Below are positions 20,977-39,169 of a stretch of DNA of 51,474 bases, one piece after another. Numbering within the stretch: the first letter of the stretch is position 1; every line of letters begins with the position of its first letter. The notes beneath the pieces were generated by a model, which had not been told where the DNA came from, did not search any database, and saw only the letters and a list, made by a program, of their open reading frames with translations. Location: positions 1 through 51,474 of IMG/VR virus record IMGVR_UViG_3300033981_002534. One strand, given 5' to 3'. The stretch comes from a virus. The translations under genes were made by a program, and so were the position numbers.

Positions 20977-21402
20977 TCAGAACGGCATACCGTCAGGAAG
21001 AGATCCAGGCCGCGAGCCTCTCGCTGCCGGCCGAGCTTGCGGGCGCGCATTGTCAACACCAGGTGACTGCTCTCCACCACGCTCACCTCGCTCGAGGAAA
21101 GTGACAGTGTCGGCCTTGATCTCGGTGACGTACTTGGTCTGGCCGCCCTGCTCGAAGCTGCGGCTCTGGATTCGCCCGACGACATGAACGAGCTGTCCTT
21201 TGCGAAGGTTGCTGCATGCCTTGGCGAGTGTGCCCCAGACGACGATGCGGTGCCACTCGGTGCGCTCTTGTATGTTTCCATCCCGGTCTTTCCATTTCTC
21301 TGAGGTGGCCATGTTGAAGTTGGCGACGTCCTGCCCGCCCTGTGTGCTGCTTGCCTCGACATCCGCGCCAAGTCTACCGATGAGTGTGCATTGATTGTAC
21401 AT
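20977..21402 (-). CDS. ssb: Single-stranded DNA-binding protein
   Basis: 141 residues. A classic OB-fold SSB: MYNQCTLIGRLGADVE at the start, VANFNMATSEKW, ERTEWHRIVVWGTLAKAC, LRKGQLVHVVGRIQSR, then TEIKADTVTFLERGE. The C-terminus is a flexible Pro/Arg/Ser tail ending DGMPF, close to the acidic tip (DDDIPF) through which bacterial SSBs recruit partners. An AGGAG site precedes the ATG. It should coat replication and recombination intermediates, and pairs functionally with the primase-helicase and the RecT-like protein. Confidence 0.92.
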   Translation of the reverse strand: MYNQCTLIGRLGADVEASSTQGGQDVANFNMATSEKWKDRDGNIQERTEWHRIVVWGTLAKACSNLRKGQLVHVVGRIQSRSFEQGGQTKYVTEIKADTVTFLERGERGGEQSPGVDNARPQARPAARGSRPGSLPDGMPF

Positions 21403-22082: not shown

Positions 22083-22501
22083 CTCGGCACAATGCTCCCT
22101 TCTTTGTCAAGCATGCCTGCCTTCCGCAGTTCGGAGAGCGCCCATGTTCTGCCAGAGTCTCCGCCCCAGAGCTTCCAAGCAATGAGCCCTGCGCTCGGGT
22201 ACCCAGGCTCTCCAGGCTTGCTGCCCTCGCCCTGCAGGTCGACCTCGTGCCGGTCAAAGTAGGCTTTCATGCGCTTCAGTGTCAGGTAGGATACTGCCCG
22301 CCCCCCACTAAGGTCACGAGCTCTGGCGACTCCGACCATCGTGCCGCCTCGCTTGTGCTTCAGTCGCCACTCGAGACCAAGAGCTGCCTCTTCCTGCACG
22401 CCCTTCGGCGGCTTGACTGTGTCAGTAACTGCCAGAAACTGCGCGACAGCCTCGACTTCTGCAATGATATCAATCTGTTTGTCCTGTCGTCTTTTGCTCA
22501 T
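22079..22501 (-). CDS. Conserved phage LWGGD-motif protein
   Basis: 140 residues. It carries the block VQEEAALGLEWRLKHKRGGT, GVARARDLSGGRAVSYLTLKRMKAYFDRHEVD and AWKLWGGDSGRTWA. This pattern (A..GL..R, GG, RA.dL..G, RM..YF.RHE, AW.LWGGD) is one I associate with a widespread phage domain often found alone or fused to head-morphogenesis proteins. The exact biochemical role is not established to my knowledge. It overlaps the next gene and the previous one by ATGA. Confidence 0.65.
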   Translation of the reverse strand: MSKRRQDKQIDIIAEVEAVAQFLAVTDTVKPPKGVQEEAALGLEWRLKHKRGGTMVGVARARDLSGGRAVSYLTLKRMKAYFDRHEVDLQGEGSKPGEPGYPSAGLIAWKLWGGDSGRTWALSELRKAGMLDKEGSIVPR

Positions 22502-22881
22502 GGTGCCTCTTCAAAGAATATGTCGGAACAGTCGCTGGTAGGGTCGAAGACTTCGTCGGTGTAGAGCTTGGTCACCAAGACCTCGAGGGCGCTGTCCACC
22601 GGGCGCACGTTCAGGTTGCCTTCGCCATAGACCTTGAGCGGCAGTGCCCATGCAAAAGTCTCGTAGAGGGTCTGGGCGAGCTTGCCGAAGACGACGCAGG
22701 GAATGTCCATGCTCGTGCTCTTGGTGGTGCCATCTCGTTTGTAGAGGGTCTTGCGAGTGGTCGTCAAGGTGAACTGCAGAGCGGTGCGCTGGACGTGCTC
22801 GGCGTCTGGGTGGTAGCTGACGATCTTGGTGATGGTACCTCGCAGCGTCACGCGTGCGAATTCAGGTGTCGATGTGATCAT
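22498..22881 (-). CDS. OB-fold ssDNA-binding-like protein
   Basis: 127 residues from the ATG at 22881 (MITSTPEF), with GAGAGGAT upstream. It reads as a second SSB-like OB fold: VTLRGTITKIVSY, RTALQFTLTTTRKTL, SMDIPCVVFGKLAQ, LPLKVYGEGNL, then an acidic end (SDIFFEEAP). An acidic tip is a hallmark of SSB-like proteins. It is the first gene downstream of a promoter with a bulged-hairpin leader (22895-22950). It may serve the origin or transcription-coupled DNA rather than general coating. Confidence 0.65.
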   Translation of the reverse strand: MITSTPEFARVTLRGTITKIVSYHPDAEHVQRTALQFTLTTTRKTLYKRDGTTKSTSMDIPCVVFGKLAQTLYETFAWALPLKVYGEGNLNVRPVDSALEVLVTKLYTDEVFDPTSDCSDIFFEEAP

Positions 22882-22894
22882 GATATCCTCTCTC

Positions 22895-22950
22895 GGCGGC
22901 ATCACTGCCGACCATGCCTTGACTGTACCTTAGTCGACCAGCAATTGCAA
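22895..22950 (-). promoter_or_regulatory. Promoter plus bulged-hairpin leader (site 4)
   Basis: On the minus strand: -35 TTGCAA (22950-22945), 17-bp spacer, -10 TACAGT (22927-22922). CATGG starts exactly 11 bases after the first base of the -10. Then comes a hairpin GG(T)CGGCA-GTGA-TGCCGCC (22913-22895) with a single bulged T, followed by CGAGAGAGGAT and the ATG at 22881. The -35 overlaps the end of the upstream gene. The same layout recurs at three other promoters with different stem sequences. Confidence 0.7.
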
Positions 22951-23406
22951 GGCTCTGACGAAGGCCAATCGCTCGTTCTTGTTGATGCTTCCCTCGAGGA
23001 TGATTGCCTGTTTCTCGGCGACCGCAAAGGCTTCCTCTTCGGTGAGCTCTTCGACCTTGCCTCGTGCCATGGCAGCAACGCACTCTTTGAGGGCATCGAC
23101 TTGCTTGGTGAGCTTCTCGGTGACTTGGTCTTGGGTGTAGGTTCGACTTGCGAGCAGGCTATCGAGCACATCGGTCGCATGCCAGAAGCGAGCGGCTGAC
23201 CGAGGGTAGAGCTCCTCGCAGGTAAGCACCGGCTGCTGATGCCCAAAGAGCTCTTGGCATCGAGCATAGACTGGCTTGAGTGCATCATTGCATCGAACGC
23301 AGTCGGCGAGCAGCTGCTCGTCAGAGGCACGGCTTGGCTCTGAGACGCTGACCACCAAAGGCTGCGATGCTGTTTTATTCGGTCGAGTTTTGAAAAGTTT
23401 TGACAT
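22930..23406 (-). CDS. Unknown 158-aa protein beside the origin
   Basis: 158 residues from the ATG at 23406, with GGAGAG six bases upstream. An upstream in-frame extension would translate the dinucleotide tract and repeats of the probable origin and is rejected. No family match is apparent. The middle holds VRCNDALKPVYARCQELFGH, and the C-terminal half is helical and charged (TEEEAFAVAEKQAIILEGSINKNERLAFVRALQLLVD). As the first gene next to the iteron-like repeats it is a candidate origin accessory or partner protein, by position only. Confidence 0.6.
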   Translation of the reverse strand: MSKLFKTRPNKTASQPLVVSVSEPSRASDEQLLADCVRCNDALKPVYARCQELFGHQQPVLTCEELYPRSAARFWHATDVLDSLLASRTYTQDQVTEKLTKQVDALKECVAAMARGKVEELTEEEAFAVAEKQAIILEGSINKNERLAFVRALQLLVD

Positions 23407-23423
23407 GTCATGCTCTCCAAAGT

Positions 23424-23505
23424 GTGACGGGTTGGTGATGGTTCGTGACGGGTTCGATATCAGCAACGCCTTGATATCATTGGCATGTGACGGGGTGACG
23501 GGTTC
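23424..23505 (+). repeat. Left iteron-like array, five plus-strand copies
   Basis: Copies: GTGACGGGTT at 23424-23433 and 23445-23454, degenerate GTGATGGTT at 23435-23443, GTGACGGG at 23487-23494 and GTGACGGGTT at 23495-23504. The first two are joined as TGTGACGGGTTGGTGA, which reappears inverted at the far right arm. All point toward the central tract. Confidence 0.85.
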
Positions 23506-23528
23506 AGGGCCTACCTCCTTTTCTATAG

Positions 23529-23562
23529 CATGTGTGCGTGTGCGCGTGTGTGCGCGCATGCG
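23529..23562. repeat. 34-bp alternating pyrimidine-purine (Z-DNA-prone) tract
   Basis: From 23529 to 23562 every step is pyrimidine-purine (CA, TG and CG dinucleotides only), 17 in a row. This is a classical sequence able to adopt left-handed Z-DNA or to melt. It sits centrally between the two arms and is flanked by TATAG. Confidence 0.9.
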
Positions 23563-23582
23563 TTATAGAGTTTGGAGACAAA

Positions 23583-23675
23583 AACCCGTCACCTTGACAC
23601 AGCCTAGCAAATCCAATGGGTTGCGCTGTCACGTCCCGTCACCAGACGTCACCAACCCGTCACACATCCTGTCAC
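23583..23675 (-). repeat. Right iteron-like array, six minus-strand copies
   Basis: As read on the plus strand: AACCCGTCAC at 23583-23592 and 23654-23663, CTGTCAC at 23626-23632, GTCCCGTCAC at 23633-23642, CAGACGTCAC at 23643-23652 and ATCCTGTCAC at 23666-23675. All face the centre, opposite to the left arm. The last copy overlaps the stop codon of the primase-helicase gene. Confidence 0.85.
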
Positions 23676-25939
23676 AAAGGCAGGGCAGCGATCTTCCAGA
23701 AGCGTCCGTCTCGGGTCTTTTTGTAGGTGCATCGGCTGAATGTGGCCAGCTTGGTTGCCCACTTGTTGCTTCCGAAGGGCTTGAAGTTGTTGGTCTTGCA
23801 CCAGTCCGCATAAGCAGCATAGAGGCGACTGGCCGCAACCCAGTTGTCGAATGTCTCGTCTTTGCCCTCGAATGAGGTGAGCCTGCATTCTTTGTCGTCG
23901 AGAGCAGTGACCCACTGAGAGACGATGTCTCCGTCATAAATCCACTCGGTGAGGAGCTGCCTCTCGCTGTTGGCAGTGGTGTATTTACGCTCCTCAAGCA
24001 GCAACCTAAAAGCTTCAATGCAGAGATTGACGACGCCTTCGAGTTCTTGGTCAATGATTCTGCCTGCGAGCCCTTGGTCTTGTCGCTCTTCTGGAATCGT
24101 GACAGTGAATGGCACCGTCAAGAATCGGCGACGAAAGCCCCAAGAGTCATCGGCGACCTTGGGCAGATGGTTGACTGACATCACATGACCGGCGATTGGT
24201 GTGAAGCTGAACTCGGGCTTGTATGGTTCGCGGGCAGACATGGTGTCACCCGCGACTGCCTGCTTGAACGCGCCTGACTCCATGACTTCTCGAAGGGGCA
24301 TGTCTGGCACGATGTTGATGAGCGCACCATCGAGCCGAGCTCTGGAGTACTCGTTCTCTGCCATGTCTTGGGGTGAGACGTTGACGCATCGAGACTTGCC
24401 CGCAGCTGCCTCGAGTATCTTGAGGAGCACTGACTTGCCGTTGGCGCCTGACCCATAGATGAGCAGTGCCTTCTGCCAGTGAGGAGCATCGCCCATCAAG
24501 CACGCACCGAAGAACTGCAGAACACAGGTTCGGAGGTTGTCGCCATCTTGCTCATCGATGCCTGGTAGAATCTCGGTCAGGAACTGCTCGAACATCGGAG
24601 CCTGAGCATCAGGGTTGTAGTTGATGCCAGAGACCCAGCGCACTCGCTGCTCTTTGGCATGTGGCTCAAAGACGAGGTCTTTGCGGTCTTTGGTCATGCG
24701 CATGAAGCCATTGGCGAAGGGAAAGCCTTTGTCTGTCTCGGCAAAGTACCCGATGTGCTCGACGGTCTCATCCATCTTGAGCAGCGAGATCACACCCTTG
24801 ACGCTGCTTGTGCTGAGCTTGAGCTGCTTGTACTTCTTCTCGCCGGTCTCTTTGTCTTTGCCTGCCTCGACTGCGCATCCAGCAAACCTCTCGACAACGC
24901 CGCCAACCTTGCTGTCAAAGAGATGTTCCCAATGTGTGGTGCGATACTGCCAGAGGGCACCTCGGTCATAGACCATCGGCCCTTTGTTCGCGAGCACAGC
25001 CAAGACCTTGTTCTTGACCTCAACGTCATCGCCTCGGGTGAAGACCTCATCGAAGAGTTCGTCATGCGGTGCAGCCTCCGGCATCGGAGACGAGTGCACA
25101 ATCTTTGTCGGCCTTGGCCTATCGACAAGCATCGGCTCTGGCTCTCGTGCACCATCGTCGATGGCATGCTTGAGACACTGTGCAATCTCTCGATCTGGCA
25201 AGCCTGTTGCCCTTGCCGCCGCCCACAGTTCGGCCTCAGCAGTGGCATGGTCGAGCGGTGACCACTCCGCCCCAACGAACTGCCCGAGTCGGAAGGCCGC
25301 CTTGTTCAGTGCATTGTTGCGGCCGCCCTTCGTGGTTGCTCTGAGATCATCCAGCACTTCGTTGATGGTCTTGTTGGTGTATGCCTGAAAGCGGTCTTGA
25401 TTGCCTGTGGGTGCTGCGCTCGGAGCTGCGGAGCGAGGTGCGGGCTGCGGCTTCTTTGGCGGCCACAGGAGCTCCATCAGATCTTTGTCGGCCTCTGCGG
25501 GTTCGCTCTGGTCGATGCAAGTGTAGACGTGACCAGTCTCATGGGTTGAGCCTTCGGCGACCACATAGCCTCCGTCTCCGCGCACATCGATCTTGTCGAT
25601 CTCGCATCGATGGCTGTTGGTGATCTGCATGCCCTCGACCCACTTGAAGTAGTAGTGGTACCCCTTGCCTGTCTTGATGGTGTAGGTAGCAGGCAGCGAG
25701 ATCTTCTCGAGAATGGCAATGTTTGCATCCTCGTCATCGACATCGAGCACCCAGACGCCAGAGCGTGGGCCGCATGCCAAGCCGATGTTGTACCCCTTGG
25801 CCTTCCAATCTTCGATCTCATCGAGTGAGTTTGTTGCTTGGTCTTTCCACTTGCCTATTGGTGTCTTGCCTCGTTCCTTGAGACGAAACACACAGAAGCC
25901 CCTCTGGGCGAGGGAGATCGCCACATCACGGATGTTCAT
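23672..25939 (-). CDS. Primase-helicase (Prim-Pol plus SF3 helicase)
   Basis: 755 residues. The N-terminal 150 residues are a bifunctional Prim-Pol domain: VWVLDVDDED (catalytic DxD), TGKGYHYYF, then DVRGDGGYVVAEGS. A middle D5_N-like region (EVFTRGDDVEVKNKVLAVL) follows. The SF3 helicase spans about residues 460-640: Walker A GSGANGKS near 495, Walker B-like LINIVPDMP, and sensor MSVNHLPKV. The C-terminal 110 residues have a YAAYADWCKTNN winged-helix-like stretch that may bind the origin. It primes and unwinds DNA at the replication start. It overlaps the nuclease gene by ATGA, and the origin-like repeats begin at its stop codon. Confidence 0.88.
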   Translation of the reverse strand: MNIRDVAISLAQRGFCVFRLKERGKTPIGKWKDQATNSLDEIEDWKAKGYNIGLACGPRSGVWVLDVDDEDANIAILEKISLPATYTIKTGKGYHYYFKWVEGMQITNSHRCEIDKIDVRGDGGYVVAEGSTHETGHVYTCIDQSEPAEADKDLMELLWPPKKPQPAPRSAAPSAAPTGNQDRFQAYTNKTINEVLDDLRATTKGGRNNALNKAAFRLGQFVGAEWSPLDHATAEAELWAAARATGLPDREIAQCLKHAIDDGAREPEPMLVDRPRPTKIVHSSPMPEAAPHDELFDEVFTRGDDVEVKNKVLAVLANKGPMVYDRGALWQYRTTHWEHLFDSKVGGVVERFAGCAVEAGKDKETGEKKYKQLKLSTSSVKGVISLLKMDETVEHIGYFAETDKGFPFANGFMRMTKDRKDLVFEPHAKEQRVRWVSGINYNPDAQAPMFEQFLTEILPGIDEQDGDNLRTCVLQFFGACLMGDAPHWQKALLIYGSGANGKSVLLKILEAAAGKSRCVNVSPQDMAENEYSRARLDGALINIVPDMPLREVMESGAFKQAVAGDTMSAREPYKPEFSFTPIAGHVMSVNHLPKVADDSWGFRRRFLTVPFTVTIPEERQDQGLAGRIIDQELEGVVNLCIEAFRLLLEERKYTTANSERQLLTEWIYDGDIVSQWVTALDDKECRLTSFEGKDETFDNWVAASRLYAAYADWCKTNNFKPFGSNKWATKLATFSRCTYKKTRDGRFWKIAALPL

Positions 25940-29808: not shown

Positions 29809-30471
29809 ATGTGGACCGCACGAATCAAAATATCGCCTCGCCTAACCATGCCTTGGCATCGAGACGCAACGATGATGCACGGCATCATGTCTCGATTGCA
29901 CGGCAAAGATCACACAAGACACAGTGCCAACTTTGGGCTTTGGCATGACGATGGCGACTGGCACGTCATGTTTCGCGATCGAGAGCAGCCCGCCTGTCTG
30001 GCAGTGCCATCGCATTCGGTCATCGCGAATCGTCGGCCCGTTGACCTAATCTTTGTTGGAATCAAACAGGTACACCTGCCCCAGATCCAACCTGATGCTG
30101 GGCGCGTGCTGCTGACCACCAAGACGCCACTGGTCTTGACATGCGACAACCACAGCAAATCCTGCACCGATCCAACTGCCGAGCACATCAAGGGTGCGCT
30201 GCAAAGAATGTCTGACTCGGTTGGTCTGGGGCTTGGTGTCGTCGATGTCGAGCAAGCAGCAGTGGCTGGTGTTGGCACACGCACAGTGGTCGGTGGTCAT
30301 GTTCAGCGAGGCAGCCCTGAGGCAGGCGTGGTGATTGGTTGGCAAGGCAGCATGGTTCTTGACTGCAGCCCAATTGCTTTGTGGTTGCTCCGCGTAGCCG
30401 AATTGGTTGGCATCGGTGGCTTGGTCAGCATGGGATTCGGGCGGGTGCAGATCGCGAGGGCGCATGAATAG
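29809..30471 (+). CDS. Cas6-like RAMP endonuclease
   Basis: 220 residues. The N-terminal part, MPWHRDATMMHGIMSRLH, has histidines in the position expected for a Cas6 catalytic helix. The protein ends with GIGGLVSMGFGRVQIA, a glycine-rich loop characteristic of Cas6 (GxG...GFGxV). Strand-rich segments lie between. It is the first gene of the type IV-like operon and overlaps csf1 by 8 bases. By analogy it would process crRNA. Classic type IV-B lacks Cas6, so this needs a structural check. A Cas5-like RAMP is the alternative. Confidence 0.65.
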   Translation: MWTARIKISPRLTMPWHRDATMMHGIMSRLHGKDHTRHSANFGLWHDDGDWHVMFRDREQPACLAVPSHSVIANRRPVDLIFVGIKQVHLPQIQPDAGRVLLTTKTPLVLTCDNHSKSCTDPTAEHIKGALQRMSDSVGLGLGVVDVEQAAVAGVGTRTVVGGHVQRGSPEAGVVIGWQGSMVLDCSPIALWLLRVAELVGIGGLVSMGFGRVQIARAHE

Positions 30472-31480
30472 CGCAAGCCAGTTGTTGTGGATGACCGTAC
30501 TCGGAGAGCCTGCGCAGGCTGACTGCTTGCCAGTGGCTGATGCTTTTGGTTGCTGGGTATGTGGTAGCAACTGGCAAGGGCGAGGTGCATTGGTCGCCAA
30601 GTGGATGCCCGGCAGCTTCACCTCCCAAAACAGAGTGCGCCTGCCTAAGTCGCAGTGGGTCTGCGAGCCGTGCGTGCACATCTGCAGTCGACTATCTCCT
30701 GTCCTCGGTAGGCCGCCGAAAGAAGGCAAGCTGCAAGGTGGCAACTATCGCAACTACAGTCACGCATGGTGGCAGAAGCCTGACGGCAGCATCGAGTACA
30801 TCAATGCCAGCAAGGGAGAGAAGCCTGCCCTGCTTGCTTGGCTCCGCAAGCCCAAGCAAGGCACGTGGTGGTGTGCAGTTGCCGACAGTGGGCAGAAACA
30901 CGTCATCCCATGGGCACCAGTCTGTCGCACAGCCAAGGGTGGGAATGTGCTGCTTGATGATGCGCTGATCACACTTGGTAGCTGGCAGTTGGTTGACGAC
31001 ATGGCCGAGCTGCTGACAGTGGGCGCGACGAAAGACGAGATCACCACAGGCGACTATCATGCAGGCAGCATCATGCGATGCGGTGCTGACATCGAGGCGT
31101 TCGAGAAGAAGTGGTCTGGGCAGCGTGGAGGCGCGTTCTTTGGCCTTGCCATCTGGCTTGCTCAGCGAGACGAAGAGAGGGTGGCCGCCAGACTCGCGGC
31201 CGAGAAGGAGGCAAAGAAGAATGGACGACAGAAGAAAAGCGACGGTCAAGCTGCTGGGCTGTTTGCGCATGCAGTACCTACGGACGCCGTCATGCAACCC
31301 GATGAAGCACTGGGAACAGCTGGCGACTCGAAGCCGAGCAGCCTCGAGGACGAGCGCCAACCTGCCAGAGTGGCTGACCACGATGTGTCGCAGCCTGCAG
31401 ATAGACGCGCCGGACAACTGGACCTCTTTGGCAGCCTCGGCCTTGCAGAGTCTGCTGCCAAGCCAAAGAGACGCCGATGA
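30464..31480 (+). CDS. csf1: Csf1 (type IV CRISPR large-subunit-like protein)
   Basis: 338 residues from the ATG at 30464, overlapping the Cas6-like gene. Type IV Csf1 traits: a Zn finger with C30-x2-C33 and C67-x2-C70 (CWVCG, WVCEPC), then a conserved-looking region WWCAVADSGQKHVIPWAPV resembling the S-x-K-H...W.P block. The C-terminal 90 residues (from about 31221) are low-complexity and overlap a second, well-initiated frame. Csf1 is the large subunit that caps the Csf2 filament at the crRNA 5' end. The long C-terminal tail is not part of the usual core. Confidence 0.75.
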   Translation: MNSASQLLWMTVLGEPAQADCLPVADAFGCWVCGSNWQGRGALVAKWMPGSFTSQNRVRLPKSQWVCEPCVHICSRLSPVLGRPPKEGKLQGGNYRNYSHAWWQKPDGSIEYINASKGEKPALLAWLRKPKQGTWWCAVADSGQKHVIPWAPVCRTAKGGNVLLDDALITLGSWQLVDDMAELLTVGATKDEITTGDYHAGSIMRCGADIEAFEKKWSGQRGGAFFGLAIWLAQRDEERVAARLAAEKEAKKNGRQKKSDGQAAGLFAHAVPTDAVMQPDEALGTAGDSKPSSLEDERQPARVADHDVSQPADRRAGQLDLFGSLGLAESAAKPKRRR

Positions 31481-31568
31481 CTGGTTGGAGATGGTCGACA
31501 GAGAGAACGGTTTTTTGATGGCATCACTGCGGGTCGAGGCTGACCAGAGAAGGGCAGAGAAGCAATGA
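31221..31568 (+). CDS. Cas11-like small subunit, overlapping csf1
   Basis: 115 residues in a different frame inside the end of csf1, continuing into the gap before csf2. AAGGAGG lies nine bases before the ATG, one of the best ribosome sites in the operon. The stop overlaps the csf2 ATG (ATGA). The protein is small and mostly helical (MDDRRKATVKLLGCL, WTSLAASALQSLLPSQ, DWLEMVDRENGF), as Cas11 subunits are. Reported type IV-B complexes contain Cas11 copies. Function is inferred from place and size. The overlapping csf1 tail could also be real. Confidence 0.55.
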   Translation: MDDRRKATVKLLGCLRMQYLRTPSCNPMKHWEQLATRSRAASRTSANLPEWLTTMCRSLQIDAPDNWTSLAASALQSLLPSQRDADDWLEMVDRENGFLMASLRVEADQRRAEKQ

Positions 31569-32557
31569 AACAGATCAAGTACGGATTCATCCTTGAAGCG
31601 ACACAGCCAATCGCGCACCACAGCGAGACGCAGGGTAACACCGCCCTGATTCAGCGAGCGAAGGTGCGCCTGAAGGACGGCACCTTTGGCCGCTTACCAT
31701 ATGTCACTGGCGATGCGATGCGACACCAGATGCGCGAGGCCATTGCCCTTGCCTACTTAAACGCCGCGGACATAGGGCCAAGCCTGTCCGAAGGTGCACT
31801 GCGCCTGCTGTTTGCGGGTGGCATGCTGACCGGTCGAGGCACTGGTGGCGACGTGGTGAAGATCGACGACTACAACAAGATGGTCAAGCTGTTCCCACAG
31901 ATCTCGATCTTCGGTGGGTGCGTTGGCAATCGCTGCGTCCCCGGCAAGCTGCAAGTATCGCATGCCCAATTGATCTGCAAAGAGACCATGCACTATCTAC
32001 CGTCTGAGGTAGTGGGGTGGCTTGGCGATCAGCAACAGGCAATCGAGACGCACCGAGCCTATGTCGAGGAGACGCAGCGAGTGCGCATGGATCCGACACT
32101 CAACCCAGCCAACCGGCTGCTGATGTCTGAGCCTGCTCGTGCGCAGCTCGAGGCGCGCCTGAAGATCTCTGAGGCCGCGCACGAGAGCGACGACCCAATC
32201 GCCCGCGAAGAGAGCAAGAGCAGCATGATGCCGCGCACGTTCGAGCGCATCATTCAAGGCAGCCTGTTCTTCTGGCAGCTCTCGGCGATGGTGCAAACCG
32301 AGCTTGACGAGGACACGCTGAATGTGGCCGTCGCGACGTTCTTGGCCAATGCTTCCGTTGGTGGCAAGCGAGGGTCTGGGCATGGTGGTCTTCGCTGCCT
32401 AAAGGCATTCGACTTCCGCTGGACAATCGCACGCCAAGAGGCAGTACCCTTGCCGGGTGACATGGTCGTGCGCTCGGAAGTCGGCAGTCTCTTCTTTCGC
32501 CATGTGGCCGAGCGCAAGGACGAGATCAAGACTTGGCTTTCGGATGTCAACGCATGA
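31565..32557 (+). CDS. csf2: Csf2 (Cas7-like backbone)
   Basis: 330 residues. RAMP/Cas7 pattern of Csf2: PIAHHSETQGNTALIQR, then LPYVTGDAMRHQMREAI (the conserved P-Y-V-T-G...R motif), a long helical insertion, and ANASVGGKRGSGHGGL with a glycine-rich loop near the end. It should polymerise along RNA as the backbone of the effector. It overlaps the Cas11-like stop and the csf3 start (ATGA each). It is of usual length for Csf2. Confidence 0.85.
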   Translation: MKQIKYGFILEATQPIAHHSETQGNTALIQRAKVRLKDGTFGRLPYVTGDAMRHQMREAIALAYLNAADIGPSLSEGALRLLFAGGMLTGRGTGGDVVKIDDYNKMVKLFPQISIFGGCVGNRCVPGKLQVSHAQLICKETMHYLPSEVVGWLGDQQQAIETHRAYVEETQRVRMDPTLNPANRLLMSEPARAQLEARLKISEAAHESDDPIAREESKSSMMPRTFERIIQGSLFFWQLSAMVQTELDEDTLNVAVATFLANASVGGKRGSGHGGLRCLKAFDFRWTIARQEAVPLPGDMVVRSEVGSLFFRHVAERKDEIKTWLSDVNA

Positions 32558-33213
32558 CCCCGTTGCGCGTGCAGGCACGCATTCAGTCTGCCATCTCGCT
32601 GCCCGGGTCACTGCTGATGCTTGACTCGCTGCTTGCCTCTGTGGTCGCCAAAGAACAGAACCTTGACACCAGTTTTGTCGCGACACTGCAGCCGACGGAG
32701 ATCGTCATCCCTGTGGCAAAGAGCGAGTGTGGGCAGTACCACCTAGCCTCCGCAGCCGAGTACGAGTGGGAGGAGAGAGAGAGCACTTGGGTCAATCGCC
32801 CGTCCCCAGTAGCTGCAGCACAGCTGTTTGGCAGCAGCAAGGTACGCATCGAGACAAGCACAGGGCTCAGCAAGCCATGGCGCTTGCCCATTGCGACAGG
32901 CTGGGTCAAGGGGGATCTGCTGACGTGGTGGTGTGTTGGTGATGCAGACGAGATCGAGCGGCTGCTGCGCATGGTTACGCATCTAGGCAAGCGTGCTGCC
33001 GTCGGCAAGGGCGAGGTGGCAGAGTGGACTGTGCAGCAGTGCGAGACGTGGGCAGGCTATCCTGTGCTGCGAGGGGGCTACCCACTGCGGCCGCTGCCCA
33101 CTGACACGCCAGGCCTTGCCGAGGATGCATACATTGCTGATGGCAGATTAACCTATCCGTACTGGATGCAGCAGGGGCGCGACTGGGTGGCCCTACCGGA
33201 GCCACAATGGTAG
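32554..33213 (+). CDS. csf3: Csf3 (Cas5-like)
   Basis: 219 residues from the ATG at 32554, overlapping the csf2 stop. Strands and a HLGKRAAVGKGEVAEWTV block near residue 150 match the G-rich loop of Csf3/Cas5 (lG...aG.G.v..w.v). A VLRGGYPLRPLP stretch follows. Cas5 proteins hold the crRNA 5' handle. The stop overlaps the cysH-like start (7 bases). Confidence 0.78.
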   Translation: MTPLRVQARIQSAISLPGSLLMLDSLLASVVAKEQNLDTSFVATLQPTEIVIPVAKSECGQYHLASAAEYEWEERESTWVNRPSPVAAAQLFGSSKVRIETSTGLSKPWRLPIATGWVKGDLLTWWCVGDADEIERLLRMVTHLGKRAAVGKGEVAEWTVQQCETWAGYPVLRGGYPLRPLPTDTPGLAEDAYIADGRLTYPYWMQQGRDWVALPEPQW

Positions 33214-34019
33214 AGCCGATTTTGCGACCAGAGGATCTCCGTCGTTGGGGGGAGTGGATGTCTGAGGCCCTTGCTTGGTCGCGTACCATTGCGCACAAGA
33301 GGCGTGTTGAGATGGCCAAGCGCGACATCGAGCAGGCACTGGCAGCAGCTCCTCGGTGGTGCGTGATGTCATCTGGCGGCAAAGACTCGACTGCCATGAC
33401 GCACCTCGTGTGCACGGAGATGGGGCTGCCGATCCCAGTTGGGTCGGAGAAGGATGACCTCGATTTTCCGGGAGAAGAAGAGCACTTGGTGCACCAAGCA
33501 GCGCAGTATGGGTGGGATCTGCACATCCTGCGCCCGCCCGTGTCTCCGCAGCAGTGGCTGCTCGAACACCGCGAAGAGCTGCACGGCAACACCAACATGC
33601 ACAGCCGCGCCGCTGGCCTCTCCAAAGCCTGCTTCTATGGTGTCGTGGAGGCATTCTCCGAGCAATACGACGGCGCCTTCTTGGGGCTGCGAGGCGAAGA
33701 GAGCAAACATCGCCGAAAGAATCGCGCAACCCACGGCAAGCTGTACCACAAGAAAGCTGGGCAGTGGGTCTGCACGCCACTCGGCGACTGGCGAGGCATC
33801 GACGTCTATGCCTACTGCGCAGCCCGCGACATCGAGCTGCTGCCGATCTACAAGTGCTGTGCTCTAATGGACAGCTCCGACCCCTCGAGGGTGCGCAAGT
33901 CTTGGTGGGTCTCCACGTCGCAATCACACCGAGGTGCAGCCGCTTGGCTGCGCCACTACTACCCAAGCTTGTATGCCCGCCTGGCAAAGATCATCCCAAC
34001 CGTCACTCGTCACGCCTAA
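33207..34019 (+). CDS. cysH: CysH-like PAPS reductase-family protein of the CRISPR operon
   Basis: 270 residues. The PP-loop ATP-binding motif MSSGGKDSTAM lies near residue 52. Later come LGLRGEESKHRRKN and a Cys pair KCCALMD. This is the PAPS/APS reductase family. A CysH-like gene beside csf1-csf2-csf3 is the defining accessory of type IV-B loci, where its role is not known. The usual C-terminal CysH active-site Cys was not found, so it may act on a non-sulfur adenylated substrate. It is the last gene of the operon and is followed by the site 2 promoter. Confidence 0.8.
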   Translation: MVEPILRPEDLRRWGEWMSEALAWSRTIAHKRRVEMAKRDIEQALAAAPRWCVMSSGGKDSTAMTHLVCTEMGLPIPVGSEKDDLDFPGEEEHLVHQAAQYGWDLHILRPPVSPQQWLLEHREELHGNTNMHSRAAGLSKACFYGVVEAFSEQYDGAFLGLRGEESKHRRKNRATHGKLYHKKAGQWVCTPLGDWRGIDVYAYCAARDIELLPIYKCCALMDSSDPSRVRKSWWVSTSQSHRGAAAWLRHYYPSLYARLAKIIPTVTRHA

Positions 34020-37858: not shown

Positions 37859-38190
37859 TCTCGACGTGTAAAATCTGCGGAGCTCACTTCTTCGCCAGCC
37901 ATCGGTTGGCTGAGCTATGCGACTGGGTGTGTCGCAGCGAGAACAACACTCGAAAGAACCGACGTTACAAAGGGCTGCCACAGCTGGAGACGGTGAGGCA
38001 GCAATGCGTATGGTGTGCCGATGACTTCTTCGGCGCCCCTAACCAAGAGCACTGCTCCGAGCGGTGCCAGAAAGAAGACACTGAACATGCTGACCATCAA
38101 GAGAGACAGCCTGCTGTGGGCTGTCAAGACCGCCAAGGAACTCATCGGAAAGAGCACGATAACATCGCCCATTCAACTCCGTGCGGGTGA
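37855..38190 (+). CDS. Zinc-knuckle protein overlapping the clamp gene
   Basis: 111 residues, coupled by ATGA to the previous gene. Units: CKIC...LCDWVC and CVWC...HCSERC. Relatives end soon after the last unit (CSExCQxED). Here the frame continues for about 35 low-complexity residues and overlaps the sliding-clamp gene by 104 bases. The tail may be non-functional, or the real stop may have been lost by a frameshift. It belongs to the same family as its neighbours. Confidence 0.65.
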   Translation: MISTCKICGAHFFASHRLAELCDWVCRSENNTRKNRRYKGLPQLETVRQQCVWCADDFFGAPNQEHCSERCQKEDTEHADHQERQPAVGCQDRQGTHRKEHDNIAHSTPCG

Positions 38191-39169
38191 GCAAGACCTG
38201 ACTGTCGAAGGCACGAACCTTGACCAGTGCATCCGCATCAAGATGCCGGCCGAGGTCAAACGAGCGCTGACTGGTGCAGCTCCTCTCGACATCTTGGCCG
38301 CGCTGTCATCTGCCACCGGCGACGAGGTGACCATCTTCGAGAAGGGCAATCGCCTAAACGTCACGTGGGGTAAGGCAGGTCGCAGCTCATGCGCATGGAC
38401 AGACCAAGGGCTCATCGACATGCCATCAAGCAAGGGCAAGCCTGCCCAACTCGAACTGTCTCCGAGCCTGCTCAAGCAGGTGCTCGGCTGCGCTGTGGCT
38501 GCAGGGTCTGACGAGACACGCATCCACCTGATGGGAGTGAACCTCGGCCGCGAGCTGCTTGCGGGTACCGATGGCCACCGATGCCATGTCATGCAGTCTC
38601 GACTTCCAATGGCTCCCGAGCAGTGGCCTGCGCCAACAGTGCCAGTCGCCTTCTTCACCCAACTGGACAAGCTAAGTGGCGGCCGCATCCCACGCTTCAG
38701 CTTGGCCGCCGATGGCAACCACGTCTCGTGCGAGTTCGAGCACAGCAATGGCTTCGTTAAGATCTGGACGCGCTGTACTGACAGCACGTATCCAGACATT
38801 CTCGGAGTGCTGCCAAAGAGCTATGTGTGGCGAGTGTGGGTCAACAGCAAGGCAATGCTCGACCTCATCACCAGGGCCAAGAACACTGGCGCAGAAGGTC
38901 TTCGCTTGGCAGGCGACCCGTCGATTGGTCTGCGAGTCAAGATCGACAAAGACATCGAGTTCGAGGATGGCATCGAGGCCGAGTTCGAGGAAGGCAAGGC
39001 CATCGTGCCAACTGGAGTCGCGCCGAAGTATCTGCTCGATGCGCTCAAGGTCTGTGAGCTCGAAGACAAGATCTGCATCAGCGGCACGGAGCCGACTGCC
39101 CCAATGACCGTTGGGCTTGCGGAGGGTCGCGACAGCATGGTTGCCGTCGTGATGCCGATGCGCCTATGA
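38087..39169 (+). CDS. dnaN: DNA polymerase III beta-type sliding clamp
   Basis: 360 residues from the ATG at 38087. It is a three-domain beta-clamp: MLTIKRDSLLWAVKTAKELI start, QLRAGEQDLTVEGTNL, ARLTGA-like strands, TDGHRCHVMQSRLP near residue 170, and the canonical end DSMVAVVMPMRL (compare DnaN MPMRL). No replicative polymerase was found in the window. The clamp may therefore work with the host polymerase or load a phage factor. It overlaps the small zinc-finger frame upstream and the next gene (ATGA). Confidence 0.88.
   Translation: MLTIKRDSLLWAVKTAKELIGKSTITSPIQLRAGEQDLTVEGTNLDQCIRIKMPAEVKRALTGAAPLDILAALSSATGDEVTIFEKGNRLNVTWGKAGRSSCAWTDQGLIDMPSSKGKPAQLELSPSLLKQVLGCAVAAGSDETRIHLMGVNLGRELLAGTDGHRCHVMQSRLPMAPEQWPAPTVPVAFFTQLDKLSGGRIPRFSLAADGNHVSCEFEHSNGFVKIWTRCTDSTYPDILGVLPKSYVWRVWVNSKAMLDLITRAKNTGAEGLRLAGDPSIGLRVKIDKDIEFEDGIEAEFEEGKAIVPTGVAPKYLLDALKVCELEDKICISGTEPTAPMTVGLAEGRDSMVAVVMPMRL

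Follow-up and report, generated by a model that had tools for sequence, protein, structure and literature searches.

A gap of 263 bp between two minus-strand genes is, judged by its anatomy and by its homologues, very probably the replication origin of the phage represented by a complete IMG/VR contig, whose 51,474 bases were all analysed and are referred to below as the window. Two sets of short repeats point towards each other across the centre of this gap, and the centre is occupied by a long tract of perfectly alternating purines and pyrimidines, which we regard with moderate confidence as a putative unwinding element maintained by selection. The explanation as a whole, namely a bidirectional SF3 origin in which alternating DNA would act as the unwinding element, frequently substituting for AT-rich DNA, is one that we hold with good confidence on the strength of comparisons between genomes.

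Anatomy of the putative origin and its surroundings

The features of the locus, numbered from the first base of the window, are as follows.

23409..23671, no strand: putative replication origin, spanning the gap from the primase-helicase stop to the next gene start, at the homologous position in relatives
23424..23504, plus strand: left iteron arm, with GTGACGGG at 23424, 23445, 23487 and 23495
23524..23528, plus strand: TATAG, left flank of the tract
23528..23563, no strand: 36-bp perfectly alternating purine-pyrimidine tract made of CG, CA and TG steps, candidate unwinding element
23564..23568, plus strand: TATAG, right flank of the tract
23583..23675, minus strand: right iteron arm, with six GTGAC units, three of them GTGACGGG
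23672..25939, minus strand: 755-aa primase-helicase (Prim-Pol, D5_N, DUF5906 (SF3) and a C-terminal winged helix), presumed initiator
22902..23408, minus strand: 168-aa ORF with no assigned function, directly beyond the origin, its start an ATG behind GGAGAG
22498..22905, minus strand: weak SSB-like protein (Pfam SSB, E 3e-4, under the curated cut-off), sharing the operon direction

The gap is bounded by the stop of the primase-helicase gene on one side and, on the other, by position 23408, where the following minus-strand gene starts. The original prediction had described five plus-strand and six minus-strand copies of a repeat facing each other; the array is indeed there, but these counts hold only because degenerate copies are included, the exact copies numbering four and three. 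The fifth plus-strand copy is the degenerate GTGATGGTTC (GTGATGG) at 23435, while the six minus-strand GTGAC units appear on the plus strand as GTCAC at 23588, 23628, 23638, 23648, 23659 and 23671, and the exact minus-strand units among them read as CCCGTCAC on the plus strand, at 23585, 23635 and 23656. All seven exact occurrences of GTGACGGG in the whole contig (four plus, three minus, pointing inward) lie inside the array, compared to at most two per 270 bp in 200 dinucleotide-preserving shuffles. A loose 10-mer scan of the whole window, in which two mismatches were allowed, showed no enrichment (29 found, 37 expected), and the array signal is one of clustering of the units, not of their window-wide number. 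Within each arm the spacing of the units tracks the helical repeat, with a vector strength of approximately 0.8 at 10.5 bp for the few units available. The inverted outer ends that had been foreseen were found as a TGTGACGGGTTGGTGA pair (23423-23438 and 23649-23664), embedded in a 31-nt inverted pair that is 87% complementary, and the helicase gene does end in the right arm, its stop codon (23672-23674) overlapping the outermost right repeat.

The alternating tract had been placed at 23529-23562 (34 bp) between two copies of TATAG. Alternation is perfect over this stretch and both flanks are present, though the tract in fact extends slightly further, to 36 bp. No other alternating run in the window reaches 14 bp, and the longest such run in 200 shuffles was 23 bp. 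Being long, unbroken and rich in CG and CA/TG steps, the tract has the sequence by which Z-DNA elements are recognised. Two viral contigs encode the primase-helicase at 98-100% identity, and in one of them (L002), from which the window differs by few bases, the spacers of the left arm are altered and the exact GTGACGGG units are not. The tract of this relative is two bases shorter (34 bp) and carries one G-to-A change, and still its alternation is perfect; its core is 49% AT, with a best 20-mer of 70% AT. No close DNA homologues were found among named phages.

The domains of the 755-aa protein (Prim-Pol, D5_N and DUF5906) were assigned by Pfam, and in PHROG the protein matched DNA primases. 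Its AlphaFold2 model (residues 291-755; pLDDT 82, pTM 0.81) has a winged helix at its C-terminal end, made of two helices and a beta-hairpin. The top match in a Foldseek search of the PDB was the SaPI5 primase-helicase 7OLA (E 1e-18), and a PDB profile search returned the same structure (7ola, E 1e-33) along with the African swine fever virus primase C962R and poxvirus D5-type helicases. The C-terminal winged helix was also considered as a Z-alpha domain, a reading that was rejected, as the best 50 Foldseek matches of the isolated winged helix included no Z-alpha domain; these matches (forkhead, Fur, SmtB, LOTUS and Orc1/Cdt1) were weak, all with E of at least 0.026.

Beyond the origin, the 168-aa ORF gave no match in Pfam and PHROG searches and is conserved in the relatives L001 and L002. 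A second SSB-like gene, with a clear match (E 1e-28), lies near the origin at 20977-21402 on the minus strand. Readings of the region as a promoter, a terminator or a member of an RNA family were dropped after searches that gave nothing convincing. The contig encodes a complete TerL (Pfam) as well as long tail-like ORFs, and the replicon is an ordinary tailed phage rather than a PICI satellite. Elsewhere on it, three plus-strand genes in a row (30407-34019) matched type IV CRISPR effectors in PADLOC (Csf1/Cas8, E 3e-16; Csf2/Cas7, E 5e-45; Csf3/Cas5, E 2e-33) and are followed by a PAPS-reductase (CysH-like) ORF; this module, carried by the phage, is similar to type IV-B systems. A plus-strand ORF at 38015-39169 gave a weak full-length match, over all three domains, to the DNA polymerase III beta clamp and may encode a phage sliding clamp.

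GC skew had been proposed as a check on the origin. The cumulative minimum at 22512 lies approximately 1 kb from the array, but since it is broad (22.5-30 kb) and the coding strand switches nearby, it lends little weight to the assignment.

Recurrence of arrays and tracts beside DUF5906 helicases

Pairs of GTGACGGGT units lying within 30 bp were found in at least 120 stretches, and inward-pointing arrays were sought in two scans, which gave 73 and 64 stretches. When the units were required to point outward, as a control at the spacing of the first scan, 38 stretches were found, compared to 73 for the inward orientation, and several of these 38 were complex origin arrays. A DUF5906-type helicase, detected with a profile built for this analysis, was present in 62 of the 118 inward-array loci, a few of which are one contig fetched twice, and in 59 of these 62 the array lay 3' of the helicase domain and started at a distance of 318-722 bp from it. 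The 56 convergent-array loci in which no DUF5906 helicase was detected, many of them in coding DNA or at contig ends, are probably due in part to chance. On one short contig, where no helicase of the DUF5906 kind was detected, an opposed GTGACGGG array (L061:1648-1751) directly follows a terminase large subunit gene with a LAGLIDADG homing-endonuclease insert.

Pfam analysis showed that DUF5906 is what the proteins at the array loci have in common, their N-terminal parts being of several kinds (Prim-Pol, Toprim, BT4734-like with PriCT_1, NrS-1-like), and the array thus goes with the helicase and its C-terminal domain rather than with the primase. Comparative support for an origin served by the adjacent SF3 primase-helicase, as originally predicted, is strong, since the layout recurs after divergent SF3 helicases. 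In fusions of Prim-Pol, DUF5906 and a family-A DNA polymerase (L015, L038 and L110), the array lies in an uninterrupted frame, in the linker past the helicase, and the same holds for the fusion in L161, which had no scored Prim-Pol match. The alternating tract is in frame too in L161, L153, L187 and L038, where it is translated as YTHARTHAQ, HAHAHTRTHAHE or LTRTHTP. Such in-frame arrays and tracts indicate that it is the DNA itself that is kept, rather than an intergenic signal, and that the position relative to the helicase domain is kept despite the strange linker which is thereby encoded.

Clustering of 81 helicases at 70% identity gave 48 clusters, and 46 representatives had at least two units. 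An alternating run of at least 16 bp lay inside the array in 14 of these 46 clusters, with 0.08 expected from equal-length windows on the same contigs, and runs of at least 20 bp did so in 10 (0.03 expected); outside the arrays, only six runs of at least 16 bp were found in 445 kb. Nearly all of the tracts had plus-strand units to the left and minus-strand units to the right, pointing inward. By exact match, L113 has plus units on both sides of the tract. The array in L113 adjoins a Toprim/DUF5906 primase-helicase and holds the longest tract observed, with 59 bp of perfect alternation between GTGACGGG units (L113:9183-9376).

The tract is not obligatory, since one of at least 14 bp was absent from 27 of the 41 scorable array-bearing centres. 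Most centres without a tract are AT-rich, and tract-bearing centres are less so (best 20-mer 0.67 vs 0.81, p = 0.007). Tracts were also commoner on contigs with a GC content of at least 0.55 (12 of 26 compared to 2 of 15, p = 0.04), and several of the tract-less centres belong to GC-rich phages without an obvious AT-rich element. On the helicase tree, a quick build with several long branches on which change counts are indicative, the presence of the tract needs at least eight changes, at least four of them forced by well-supported branches; it is also clustered on the tree, with none of 500 shuffles giving a value as low.

Two further samples were drawn by searching for peptide motifs of the helicase alone, regardless of any array. 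The search of viral contigs gave 80 loci with 75 distinct post-stop regions, of which 70 contained a tract of at least 14 bp, in 64 different tract sequences, and the opposed repeats at these loci were diverse (GTGACGGAT, CTGACGGAT, TGACGCA, TGGCGGAT and others). The search with one genome per species, in which the hosts were mainly Alpha-, Beta- and Gammaproteobacteria (prophages), likewise gave 80 loci, with 72 distinct regions. Tracts of at least 14 bp were found in 70 of these 72 regions (0.94 expected) and tracts of at least 18 bp in 65, with none in control windows and with 52 different sequences. As the helicase-selected loci largely come from one proteobacterial prophage clade (six single-linkage clusters at 80%), they are not independent, and their value is that alternation persists while the sequence diverges. 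In most of these prophages (L296, L284, L415 and others), a short gene starting ILALDLGTTTGWAL directly follows the origin; it looks like a RuvC-type resolvase, and its AcaML1 version is annotated as a polynucleotidyltransferase.

Transitions preserve the alternation of purines and pyrimidines, whereas transversions break it. When the tract was delimited on just one member of each of 67 disjoint pairs, the substitutions in tracts comprised 57 transitions and 17 transversions, compared to 699 and 824 outside (odds ratio 4.0, p = 1e-7), an excess that could be due in part to the CG-rich content of the tracts. Indel parity went in the same direction as the transitions, though not significantly (p = 0.09).

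Comparison with known origins and a proposed mechanism

Origins of SaPIs and other PICIs consist of opposed iteron sets directly 3' of the primase-helicase gene, with an AT-rich centre (PMC6092414, PMC7581432). SaPI Rep, which apparently binds as two hexamers, uses its C-terminal domain to recognise iterons directly downstream of its own gene, and the C-terminal domain of the related helicase Cch2 likewise binds the repeats of that system (PMC7581432). The present locus matches this plan, which further supports reading it as an origin: the array (23424-23675) lies immediately 3' of the initiator gene, its two iteron sets have opposite orientation, and the predicted initiator resembles SaPI Rep in being an SF3 helicase that carries a C-terminal winged helix, its closest structure being 7OLA. 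It differs in that the centre holds a Z-prone alternating tract where the PICIs have AT-rich DNA, and in that it belongs to a tailed-phage contig encoding a terminase of its own rather than to a satellite. The earlier remark that the pattern is not a standard one is therefore apt for the Z-prone centre, but not for the opposed-iteron plan, which was already known.

P4 has two separate cis sites and a Toprim-type primase. Its alpha protein, compared here by description, has in common with the present protein that it is a primase-SF3 helicase with a C-terminal winged helix, which according to work cited in PMC4234260 binds short repeats. The crenarchaeal plasmid pRN1 resembles the present locus in position, its essential cis element being located immediately 3' of a gene for a Prim-Pol/SF3/winged-helix replicase (PMC4234260), but this element is a 100-nt stem-loop with neither iterons nor an alternating tract. 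On inspection, Bacillus phage phi105 and Listeria phage PSA were seen to have a DUF5906-type primase gene followed by opposed short repeats, though with an AT-rich centre and other repeat units (AGTAACA-like and CAACTATCCACC-like). Acidithiobacillus phage AcaML1 (JX507079) is a named phage laid out in the same way: its annotated DNA primase is immediately followed by TGACGGGTC repeats, then CGTACACGCGCGCGCGCGTA and then inverted repeats. Its tract, CGTACACGCGCGCGCGCGTA, is however shorter (20 bp), its repeats are fewer, and the record carries no origin annotation there. No comparable array was seen in the post-primase regions of the phages with distant primases that were inspected, several actinophages and one Vibrio phage (Liebe, Armstrong, Dubu and Vibrio 13VV501A). 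Literature searches on the repeat unit itself returned only primers and unrelated texts, and no paper combining 'Z-DNA' with 'iterons' was found in the open-access literature, subscription journals lying outside the scope of the search.

We infer that the primase-helicase binds the GTGACGGG units via its C-terminal winged helix. The convergent arms would then load helicase rings facing each other across the centre, which would open and let two forks move apart, with priming by the Prim-Pol domain of the same protein; the opposed rings and divergent forks are modelled on SaPI Rep and other SF3 initiators. The alternating tract would take the role of the AT-rich unwinding element of the PICIs. 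Negative supercoiling or the pull of the helicase rings may drive it out of the B-form, probably into Z-DNA with junctions at its TA-rich edges, and this would nucleate strand opening.

Possible roles of the alternating tract

The recurrence of the tract at the array centre in divergent lineages, even in coding sequence, and the fact that alternation is kept while sequence is not, argue for a selected structural role. That the tract could instead be an incidental microsatellite, created by slippage and non-functional within a PICI/SaPI-type origin, seems unlikely. Opposed iterons 3' of an SF3 primase-helicase do suffice for the known plan (PMC6092414), and many relatives are without such a tract, but the tracts mix CG, CA, TG and TA steps in 101 different sequences instead of forming simple repeats, the array tracts recur in distant lineages as reflected in the changes on the helicase tree, runs of this length are almost absent elsewhere, and the tracts change by transitions. 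The main rival is that alternation has been selected for deformable pyrimidine-purine steps, easily melted or kinked, which SF3 hairpins or the winged helix would engage in the B-form without any left-handed DNA; this we consider possible, if rather doubtful. An alternating sequence has as many YR steps as possible, and TA steps cluster at the tract ends (79 observed vs 25 in shuffles), as easy edge melting predicts. The tract interiors, however, are 80% GC and thereby poor for plain melting, and interior TA steps, the weakest, are depleted (25 observed compared to 51 expected). With TA at the ends and depleted inside, the interiors are made of CG and CA/TG steps, which Z-DNA is known to prefer over TA steps. 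A supercoil-driven unwinding element, probably adopting the Z-form, appears to be the most likely role of the tract.

The opposed repeats might also represent an origin that is extruded as a stem-loop, as for pRN1 and for Bordetella phage BIP-1, where a stem-loop origin has reportedly been proposed, or the tract might form a cruciform, and both are improbable. The inverted repeat given by the outer arms would suit a stem-loop, and pRN1 does depend on one 3' of its SF3 replicase (PMC4234260), but relatives preserve the unit and its polarity and differ in the spacers and in where the units sit, and BPP-1, a close relative of BIP-1, has neither an opposed array nor a tract at the corresponding place. 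The cruciform is disfavoured by the lack of any excess of palindromes, the 101 distinct tracts being no more palindromic than alternating shuffles of equal composition (9.8 vs 10.2); short hairpin stems are mildly in excess in the 101 tracts (5.26 vs 4.92), which leaves some room for a hairpin role. It is very improbable that the array is not an origin at all but an operator or promoter region for the downstream operon (the 168-aa ORF and the SSB-like gene). Although a cluster of minus-strand genes follows it directly, no promoter-like site was found in 23300-23800, the downstream gene differs in relatives, and in the fused proteins the array lies within a single frame. We give just as little credence to the idea that the primase domain finds its priming sites (GTG or CAC) in the tract, even though the pRN1 Prim-Pol starts at GTG according to work cited in PMC4234260 and 96 of the 101 tracts contain GTG or CAC. 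Neither motif occurs in the other five, GTG needs no alternation, tracts accompany Toprim primases too, and pRN1 replication tolerates loss of the plasmid's GTG motifs (PMC4234260).

Extending the preferred reading, that of a supercoil-driven unwinding element, beyond this phage, we tentatively suggest that at many phage origins the unwinding element may be Z-DNA formed by a sequence-free but strictly alternating tract between opposed helicase-loading arrays, an element repeatedly gained or lost and favoured where AT-rich elements are scarce. To our knowledge, there are few clear examples of roles for Z-DNA in bacteria and phages. Here, many phages and prophages preserve alternation rather than sequence at a single defined site, beside a helicase of known structure, and the old question of whether Z-DNA or alternating DNA helps origins to open becomes directly testable on small plasmids. 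The opposed-iteron plan, which had been thought peculiar to PICIs, is widespread in tailed phages and is linked to the helicase rather than to the primase domain. It also provides a simple signature by which the origins of phage genomes can be located, even within coding sequence.
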